From: Pseudomonadota bacterium | GTDB lineage: Bacteria > Pseudomonadota > Gammaproteobacteria > Burkholderiales > Rhodocyclaceae | NCBI GenBank assembly: GCA_008501585.1 | Contig: QQUN01000055.1 | Location: forward strand, 1-64,000 | Direction: 5' to 3' | Length of the DNA stretch: 64,000 nucleotides | Shown here: positions 39,119 through 46,498 of the stretch, in pieces | Layout of the letters: each line of letters begins with the position of its first letter | How positions within the stretch are numbered: the stretch's first letter is position 1 | Position numbers and translations under genes: made by a program | The notes under the pieces: model-generated | Told to the model about the DNA's origin: nothing | The model's database searches: none | Seen by the model: only the letters and a program-made list of their open reading frames with translations

Positions 39119-40552
39119 TTAGGCGTGTGCGGCCTGCGGCGCGACCACCGGTGCGCTGTAGGCTTTCTGACCAGCGATCGTCTTCACCATGTTGTAGAAC
39201 ATGAGGAACATGCCGCCGAGGAAGAGCACGCCGCCGAGCAGACGGATGGACCAGAACGGGTAGCTGGCCTTGACCGACTCGACGAAGGAGTAGGTCAGCG
39301 TGCCGTCCGGGTTGGTTGCACGCCACATCAGGCCCTGCATCACACCGGCAATCCACATCGAGGCGATGTACAGCACCACGCCGATGGTCGCGATCCAGAA
39401 GTGGGTCGTGATCAGCTTGGTGGAGTACATCTCGGTCTTGCCGTACATGCGCGGCAGCAGGTAGTAGATGGCGCCGATCGACACCATGGCCACCCAGCCC
39501 AGCGCGCCGGAGTGCACATGGCCGACGGTCCAGTCGGTGTAGTGCGACAGCGCATTGACGGTCTTGACCGACATCATCGGGCCTTCGAAGGTCGACATGC
39601 CGTAGAAGGACAGCGAGGTGATCAGGAACTTCAGGATCGGATCGGTGCGCAGCTTATGCCAGGCGCCCGACAGGGTCATGATGCCGTTGATCATGCCGCC
39701 CCACGACGGTGCCAGCAGGATCAGCGAGAAGATCATGCCCACCGACTGGGTCCAGTCCGGCAGCGCGGTGTAGTGCAGGTGGTGCGGACCCGCCCACATG
39801 TAGGTGAAGATCAGGGCCCAGAAGTGGACCACCGACAGACGATACGAATACACCGGGCGATCGGCCTGCTTCGGCACGAAGTAGTACATCATGCCCAGGA
39901 AGCCGGCGGTCAGGAAGAAGCCCACCGCGTTGTGGCCGTACCACCACTGGATCATCGCGTCCTGCACGCCGGCGTAGGCCGAGTAGGACTTGGTCAGGCT
40001 GACCGGAATCGCAGCGCTGTTGACGATGTGCAGCAGGGCCACGGCGAGGATGAAGGCGCCGTAGAACCAGTTGGCCACATAGATGTGCGAGGTCTTGCGC
40101 TTGGCGATGGTGCCGAAGAAGACAATCGCGTACGAAACCCACACCACGGCAATCAGGATGTCGATCGGCCACTCGAGCTCGGCGTACTCCTTGCTGGTGG
40201 TGATGCCCAGCGGCAAGGTGATGGCCGCGAGCACGATGATCAACTGCCAGCCCCAGAACGTGAACGACGCCAGCTTGGGCGCGAACAAGGGCACATGGTT
40301 CGTGCGCTGCACCACATAGTAGGACGTCGCGAACAACGCACAGCCACCAAAGGCAAAGATCACGGCGTTGGTATGGAGCGGGCGCAGCCGACCAAAGTGG
40401 AACCACTCGGCGAAGTTCAGTTCGGGCCATACGAGCTGTGCTGCGACGATCACGCCGACCAGCATGCCCACAATCCCCCACACCACCGTCATGATGGCGA
40501 ACTGGCGCACGACTTTATAGTTGTAAGTCGCTTGCGATTGCATGTGAGTCAC
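39119..40552 (-). CDS. ccoN: cbb3-type cytochrome c oxidase subunit I
   Basis: 477 aa; [69 protein letters not shown]. Confidence 0.97.
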
Positions 40553-40643
40553 CTCTTAGAATTAAAACCTGGAACCCCCCTGCACCGCGGCATAACGCCG
40601 CGATGCTCCGGACGAAGGATACGCTCGCACCCGGAGGGGCTTT

Positions 40644-40657
40644 TGACACAGATCAAT
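40644..40657 (-). promoter_or_regulatory. FNR box of ccoN promoter
   Basis: TTGACACAGATCAA; minus-strand TAATCC near 40622-40617 at class II spacing. Confidence 0.8.
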
Positions 40658-40723: not shown

Positions 40724-40752
40724 AAAAAAAAGGGTGCGTTTGCACGCACCCC
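40724..40752 (-). terminator. Intrinsic terminator (minus strand) between ccoS and ccoN
   Basis: Minus strand GGGTGCGT-GCAA-ACGCACCC followed by TTTTTTTT. Confidence 0.88.
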
Positions 40753-40829
40753 CAACCCCAACAGAGAGACTTGAAACCGTTCGATTGGCCGGCCTGCGCC
40801 GCTTTGGCCCAGCCCTTGCCAATACCCAT
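40724..40829 (-). ncRNA. Candidate FNR-activated small RNA, about 105 nt
   Basis: FNR box 40863-40876, -10 CATACT at 40841-40836, predicted TSS near 40829, terminator at 40724-40752; no convincing complete ORF inside. Confidence 0.5.
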
Positions 40830-40862
40830 GTGCGTAGTATGACTTTTCAAAAATAATGGGCG

Positions 40863-40876
40863 TTGACATGGATCAA
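40863..40876 (-). promoter_or_regulatory. Second FNR box, downstream of ccoS
   Basis: TTGACATGGATCAA. Confidence 0.78.
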
Positions 40877-40905: not shown

Positions 40906-41121
40906 TTACCGAGGGGGTGGGGGCGCCGACGCGTCATTGGCGTCGGCATGCGATTCACTGTCCGGGCGGCCCGCCGGCGGGCGGTCGTCGTCCATCATCA
41001 TGCGGTAAGCCGGCCCTTCCAGGTCGTCGAACTGCCCCGAACGAACGGACCACCAGAACAACAGGCCGATCACGAACACCAGCACGACAGACAGCGGGAT
41101 CAGCAGGTACAGGCTATCCAT
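40906..41121 (-). CDS. ccoS: cbb3 oxidase assembly protein CcoS
   Basis: MDSLYLLIPLSVVLVFVIGLLFWWSVRSGQFDDLEGPAYRMMMDDD. Confidence 0.93.
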   Translation of the reverse strand: MDSLYLLIPLSVVLVFVIGLLFWWSVRSGQFDDLEGPAYRMMMDDDRPPAGRPDSESHADANDASAPPPPR

Positions 41122-46239: not shown

Positions 46240-46440
46240 CGTTTCACCTGTCGCTTTCCGGTGTCCGTCGCAGGACGGAAGAATCGGGAATGCGGTGAGG
46301 CGCCGGGCTTCGCCCCGGCCGCCGAGTCCGCAACGTGCCCAACGCTGTGAGGGGGATGTCTGCCGCAACATGCCACTGCCCGACCGGGCGGGAAGGCGCG
46401 GCAGACGCTGAACCCGAGTCAGAAGACCGGCCGGAGAGCG
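46240..46440 (+). promoter_or_regulatory. Cobalamin riboswitch upstream of bluB
   Basis: B12-box GAGTCAGAAGACCGGCC at 46416-46432, core GGGAATGCGGTG and CCGCAACGTGCCC; boundaries approximate. Confidence 0.88.
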
Positions 46441-46498
46441 TTTAACCCCGGCAGCCAGGCCCGGCCGCCGGATCACGCGCTTGAATCAAGGGGACTCC

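Follow-up and report, generated by a model that had tools for sequence, protein, structure and literature searches.

The ccoS-ccoN intergenic region

The genes ccoS and ccoN, which belong to a high-affinity oxygen-using enzyme, are separated in the window (the whole stretch of 64,000 nucleotides analysed here) by a gap that, read along the minus strand, contains an FNR box, the hexamer CATACT, a potential start A, an intrinsic terminator and a second FNR box, in that order (Table 1). Pfam confirmed FixS, COX1, FixO and a copper-type ATPase (CcoI) among the products of the surrounding genes. An earlier note on this DNA had already placed the FNR box, -10 element, start A and terminator, and on re-reading the sequence we found these positions correct to within a base; the discrete transcript of about 105 nt that it had proposed comes out at a predicted 106 nt, with the terminator hairpin recovered by a terminator scan. 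This predicted RNA folds to -46 kcal/mol and thereby beats 198 of 200 shuffled sequences (z -3.1). The predicted fold of its core forms CUC/GGG pairs and leaves UGUU in a loop, and the core on its own is predicted to be partly paired, with a mean unpaired probability of 0.56 for CUCUGUUG and 0.41 for GGGGUU.

Table 1. Features of the putative small RNA locus (window coordinates) and of one candidate target leader elsewhere in the same genome
Feature	Position	Strand	Remarks
ccoS (FixS, PF03597)	40906..41121	-	constant upstream neighbour; confirmed by Pfam
FNR box TTGATCCATGTCAA	40863..40876	-	centre at about -40.5 from the predicted start, a class II position
-10 hexamer CATACT	40836..40841	-	first base 28 bp from the centre of the FNR box
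Predicted small RNA, 106 nt	40724..40829	-	from start A40829 through the end of the T8 tail
Variable 5' part of the predicted small RNA	40772..40829	-	stem-loop in the window species, not kept between genera
Ultraconserved core GTCTCTCTGTTGGGGTTGGGGGTGCG	40745..40770	-	first part is the proposed mRNA-pairing region
Intrinsic terminator GGGTGCG-loop-CGCACCC-T8	40724..40753	-	terminator scan places the stem at 40753-40730
Separate FNR box TTGATCTGTGTCAA for ccoN	40643..40656	-	between the small RNA terminator and the ccoN ATG
ccoN (COX1)	39119..40543	-	ATG at 40543; usual but not invariable downstream neighbour; confirmed by Pfam
Three tandem 31-nt repeats with CCCCAACAGAGC	G000:C23:1209-1287 (L261)	-	upstream of the YeiH-type gene

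Conservation across the family

A query of 401 bases matched 27 genomes among 61 relatives; in matches from other genera than that of the window, conservation was nearly always limited to one segment of 45-57 bases (window 40778-40724). The loci of these relatives read GTCTCTCTGTTGGGGTTGGGGGTGCG, then a loop that varies, CGCACCC and finally a T run; nearly all of this first set also have a TTGA-N6-TCAA box ca. 76-117 nt upstream. Across 23 aligned sequences, fourteen consecutive core columns (T12-T25) and others beyond them are invariant. Pairing of the terminator stem is kept in 99% of cells and shows little covariation because the stem hardly varies; the terminator loop differs between genera, and the segment between the -10 element and the core varies in both length and sequence from genus to genus.

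What recurs across the GTDB family of the window is a 26-nt core (GUCUCUCUGUUGGGGUUGGGGGUGCG) together with its terminator. The covariance search across relatives that had been suggested on the basis of the window, carried out with a model of the core (R1), matched 320 of 399 genomes of this family, representing 58 of 68 genera, including named records of Azoarcus, Thauera, Aromatoleum, Parazoarcus, Azonexus, Dechloromonas, Zoogloea, Uliginosibacterium, Tepidiphilus, Sulfuritalea, Accumulibacter and Denitromonas halophila. A T run ends the element in all 154 non-redundant loci, and the median length of the predicted transcripts is 96 nt. Among 400 genomes of the order, strong matches were confined to the same family with the exception of two genomes placed in other families (G569 and G588), which show the full order of ccoS, box, small RNA, box and ccoN (L067 and L069, respectively); G569 is listed as 6% contaminated, and the arrangement in this pair may reflect contamination, misplacement or true spread. 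Those weak out-of-family matches that we read (24-39 bits; e.g., L074-L076) were unrelated terminators and were discarded.

A predicted FNR-dependent promoter

In 184 of the 187 loci with enough upstream sequence (some duplicate loci included), an exact TTGA-N6-TCAA occupies the position that corresponds to the FNR box of the window, 60-200 nt ahead of the core. With the loci aligned on this box, the 60 bases that follow contain only one further conserved block, a -10-like A+T stretch whose distance from the box is fixed. In 138 of 154 non-redundant loci (59 at 28 bp and 79 at 29 bp), a hexamer with 4 or more matches out of 6 begins 28-29 bp away from the centre of the box, compared to 2 such hexamers in a control interval downstream in the same loci. 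A box and -10 element spaced in this way correspond to a class II FNR promoter, though from sequence the protein binding there may be FNR itself or another member of the CRP/FNR family. In 155 of 180 loci, a second FNR box follows no more than 350 nt downstream. FNR box, -10 element and terminator are present together across dozens of genera, which is the co-conservation that the earlier note had named as a test of its proposal. Promoter and terminator anatomy and their family-wide co-conservation are features of the DNA itself, and as read there they recur far beyond chance; from them we infer that the element is transcribed, with FNR as the probable activator.

Predicted pairing with start-codon regions and candidate targets

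Complements of the core were searched by pattern in 13 genomes of 11 genera and their contexts fetched, with a start site called where a start codon lay 0-45 nt downstream and was supported by an open frame and third-position GC. Sites matching CCCCAACAGAGA with at most one mismatch were followed by an ATG start at this distance in 22 of 55 cases, compared to 10 of 67 for the reversed sequence (one-sided Fisher p=0.0017; 13 genomes), and 19 core-complement sites versus 7 of the reversed control lay within 25 nt of a start (p 0.0012). The total number of complementary 12-mers is no higher than for the reversed control (55 versus 67 in the 13 genomes), and position alone differs. Part of this positional signal could be likeness to Shine-Dalgarno sequences because the reversed control sets purines differently relative to the start codon; the two controls reduce this possibility but do not abolish it. 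A 17-nt pattern allowing wobble pairs found 95 places, including 13 small RNA genes themselves, versus 35 for a control matched in composition that kept the Shine-Dalgarno-like CAGAG end, and in the contexts examined an ATG start followed 20 of 80 sites versus 3 of 31 for this control. Only two copies of the exact 9-mer CAACAGAGA are present in the window genome, one in the small RNA itself and one without a convincing start-site target.

The sites with the highest complementarity include CCCCAAC just upstream of the Shine-Dalgarno sequence, and predicted duplexes with candidate targets range from -24 to -38 kcal/mol, most of them beyond those of shuffled leaders. The conserved region proposed to pair is longer than the pyrimidine stretch originally suggested to pair with Shine-Dalgarno sequences and, as UCUCUGUUGGGGUUGGGG, runs into the terminator stem.

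Pfam assigned the genes behind these sites to HPPD, a PaaA/PaaC-type oxygenase, a luciferase-like monooxygenase, allantoicase, glutathione peroxidase, IspF, an HlyD-type fusion protein, two 4HBT thioesterases, an Fe-S biogenesis protein, CydA, cytochrome c, DsrC, a 2Fe-2S reductase, FolE2, LytB/IspH and a Cons_hypoth698 (YeiH-type) membrane protein. Candidate targets predicted from these sites include cydA, HPPD, paaA, a flavin monooxygenase, glutathione peroxidase, folE2, ispH, erpA and a YeiH-type transporter. In our reading, many of them use, replace or are damaged by oxygen, which would fit an FNR-induced repressor. Three target families recur between genera, namely the YeiH-type protein (genera g1 and g91), IspH (g69 and g82) and the 4HBT thioesterase (g1 and g67). 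For folE2 orthologues, complementarity did not differ significantly between genera with and without the small RNA (p=0.18). Orthologues of ispH differ in the expected direction, a comparison with just two sequences lacking the small RNA, both of one genus, and the genus of the window itself lacks the ispH site. In the window genome, the YeiH-type gene (PF03601) has three tandem CCCCAACAGAGC copies, 31 nt apart, directly before its ATG (Table 1), and this leader is a candidate multi-site target or sponge of the small RNA. A species of the same genus (L262) and one of another genus (L299) each carry one site at this gene, and YeiH-type orthologues retain the site only in part.

Alternative origins and functions

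The neighbourhood of the element invites the reading that it is a cis-acting leader or attenuator of ccoN, given that ccoN directly follows in 128 of 144 testable loci and that the terminator lies ahead of it. Yet ccoN is preceded, below the terminator, by an FNR box of its own, and the element persists where ccoN is replaced: in one group of genera an rlmN-like gene follows the small RNA, which is still found beside ccoS (L143, L161, L175, L184 and L190), and the RNA is likewise unchanged ahead of an rrf2/fnr block (L164, L169, L188, L104 and L155) or an aldehyde ferredoxin oxidoreductase-like gene (L107; names of replacement genes by inspection of translations). Since the small RNA gene stays in these loci, it is not a ccoN leader, a role that we regard as highly improbable, and the INDEPENDENCE from ccoN that had been proposed for the window alone holds across the family. 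The constant neighbour is ccoS, directly upstream in 146 of 151 testable loci, and together with ccoI on the same strand it would be compatible with the element being the 3' UTR and terminator of an upstream ccoGHIS-type operon, with the RNA as a processed fragment rather than a primary transcript; given this orientation, the terminator would also stop read-through from that operon. An FNR box with a correctly spaced -10 element between ccoS and the core in nearly every genus would be needless for a purely processed RNA, and we consider this origin unlikely, though a primary transcript and a processed 3' UTR fragment can coexist.

Open frames that overlap the region in the window species could point to a small-protein gene, but they run through the terminator, upstream length and frame drift freely between relatives, and 116 of 154 predicted transcripts of relatives contain no complete ORF of at least 5 amino acids. 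A conserved ORF across the region, which the earlier note had set as a finding that would overturn its proposal, did not appear among the 154 relatives, and a coding function is extremely improbable. The RNA might also be FNR-induced and act by binding protein, e.g., by sequestering Hfq or another RNA-binding protein, with its complementarity to mRNAs being incidental. Conservation of the core over its whole length including the stem, which is unusual for a seed alone, and the lack of enrichment in the total number of complementary sites would agree with this; against it, these sites cluster at start codons, many of them of functionally related genes, and titration of CsrA is unlikely from inspection of the core, which has no GGA motif. 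Altogether, we judge a protein-binding function quite unlikely. The likely reading, in our view, is a stand-alone, FNR-induced small RNA that acts in trans by pairing with ribosome-binding sites, functionally like FnrS and unrelated to it in sequence.

Comparison with known small RNAs

No Rfam family reaches its gathering threshold for the small RNA, in agreement with the initial impression that it is not a known one. The open-access literature on FNR, ccoN and small RNAs in this group, which defined the scope of our search to the exclusion of subscription papers, yielded no published description of a small RNA between ccoS and ccoN. FnrS of enterobacteria is similar in that the RNA described here is, by its promoter anatomy, predicted to be FNR-activated, has a length of ca. 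100 nt and an intrinsic terminator, and would repress mRNAs of aerobic metabolism. The targets of FnrS include folE, and a folate-type GTP cyclohydrolase is shared in kind, with folE2 as the candidate here. The two differ in locus, seed and host group, and Rfam comparisons gave no sequence or covariance match to FnrS up to E=5-10. PhrS of Pseudomonas is induced by ANR and hence likewise controlled by an FNR-type regulator, but it comes from an unrelated locus and has no Rfam match here. On present evidence, the RNA would work like FnrS or PhrS while belonging to neither by sequence.

Other resemblances are more limited. FNR-induced AniS of Neisseria (RF02274) is a betaproteobacterial FNR-linked small RNA with a similar terminator, but we rejected it at 15.8 bits versus a cut-off of 50, with an alignment that is mostly terminator. 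SorY and SorX of Rhodobacter (RF02651/RF02784) have CUC(C/U)CUGUUGG ahead of the terminator in common with the core (window 40724-40795, minus strand); SorY was rejected at 28.9 bits (E 0.0002-0.0003) versus a cut-off of 111. These RNAs are of a different class and regulated by oxidative stress, and the resemblance is probably convergence or a very remote relation. S17 of Bordetella, considered together with bdhR1 of Burkholderia (RF02278), is comparable as a betaproteobacterial small RNA with an ultraconserved region, in its case of 27 nt, and many targets at ribosome-binding sites including phenylacetate genes, and it has been reported as conserved into Aromatoleum (PMC11722255). It is not the same RNA, as its printed primer TGGTGGATTTAGCCCGAGATCGCAAG (PMC11722255) is absent here and its locus lies next to coq7; RF02278 has no match in the small RNA loci.

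Proposed role in the oxygen response

We propose that at low oxygen a class II FNR promoter would switch on the small RNA gene (40829-40724, minus strand), whose transcript would end at the intrinsic terminator. Its ultraconserved UCUCUGUUGGGGUUG would then pair in trans with sequences resembling CCCCAACAGAG, located at ribosome-binding sites or immediately before them, and block translation of the target mRNAs, probably with Hfq; a terminator with a long U tail is the sole feature consistent with an Hfq-dependent small RNA. The mRNAs repressed in this way would encode oxygen-using, oxygen-protective and redox-cofactor enzymes, making the small RNA a putative RNA arm of the FNR response in Rhodocyclaceae-type bacteria. 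Whereas the enrichment of complementary sites at start codons can be counted directly in the genomes, we infer Hfq dependence, repression and each single target.

A more far-reaching version of this model is possible, and we put it forward tentatively: an undescribed, family-wide, FNR-dependent small RNA might form the RNA branch of the response to oxygen in Rhodocyclaceae-type denitrifiers and in wastewater and aromatic-degrading bacteria. Through one invariant pairing stretch it would shut down, at low oxygen, enzymes that require oxygen (oxygenases, cytochrome bd and aromatic catabolism), a set both large and evolving, and the three-site YeiH-type leader would be a strong target or sponge. 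FNR-type regulators control respiration and denitrification in this group, e.g., in Accumulibacter (PMC6446978) and Aromatoleum (PMC9765128). The Accumulibacter paper mentions FNR sites and assigns no small RNA (PMC6446978); the Aromatoleum paper assigns none either and allows for a possible small-RNA part (PMC9765128). With one easily recognised RNA in most genera, the switch between oxic and anoxic life in organisms of wastewater treatment and anaerobic aromatic degradation would gain a post-transcriptional layer. The RNA offers a ready target for knockout. Its near-invariant core and shifting candidate targets would make it a natural case for studying how small RNA regulons evolve.

Elsewhere in the window, a cobalamin riboswitch (RF00174, 116 bits) lies on the plus strand at 46242-46449.
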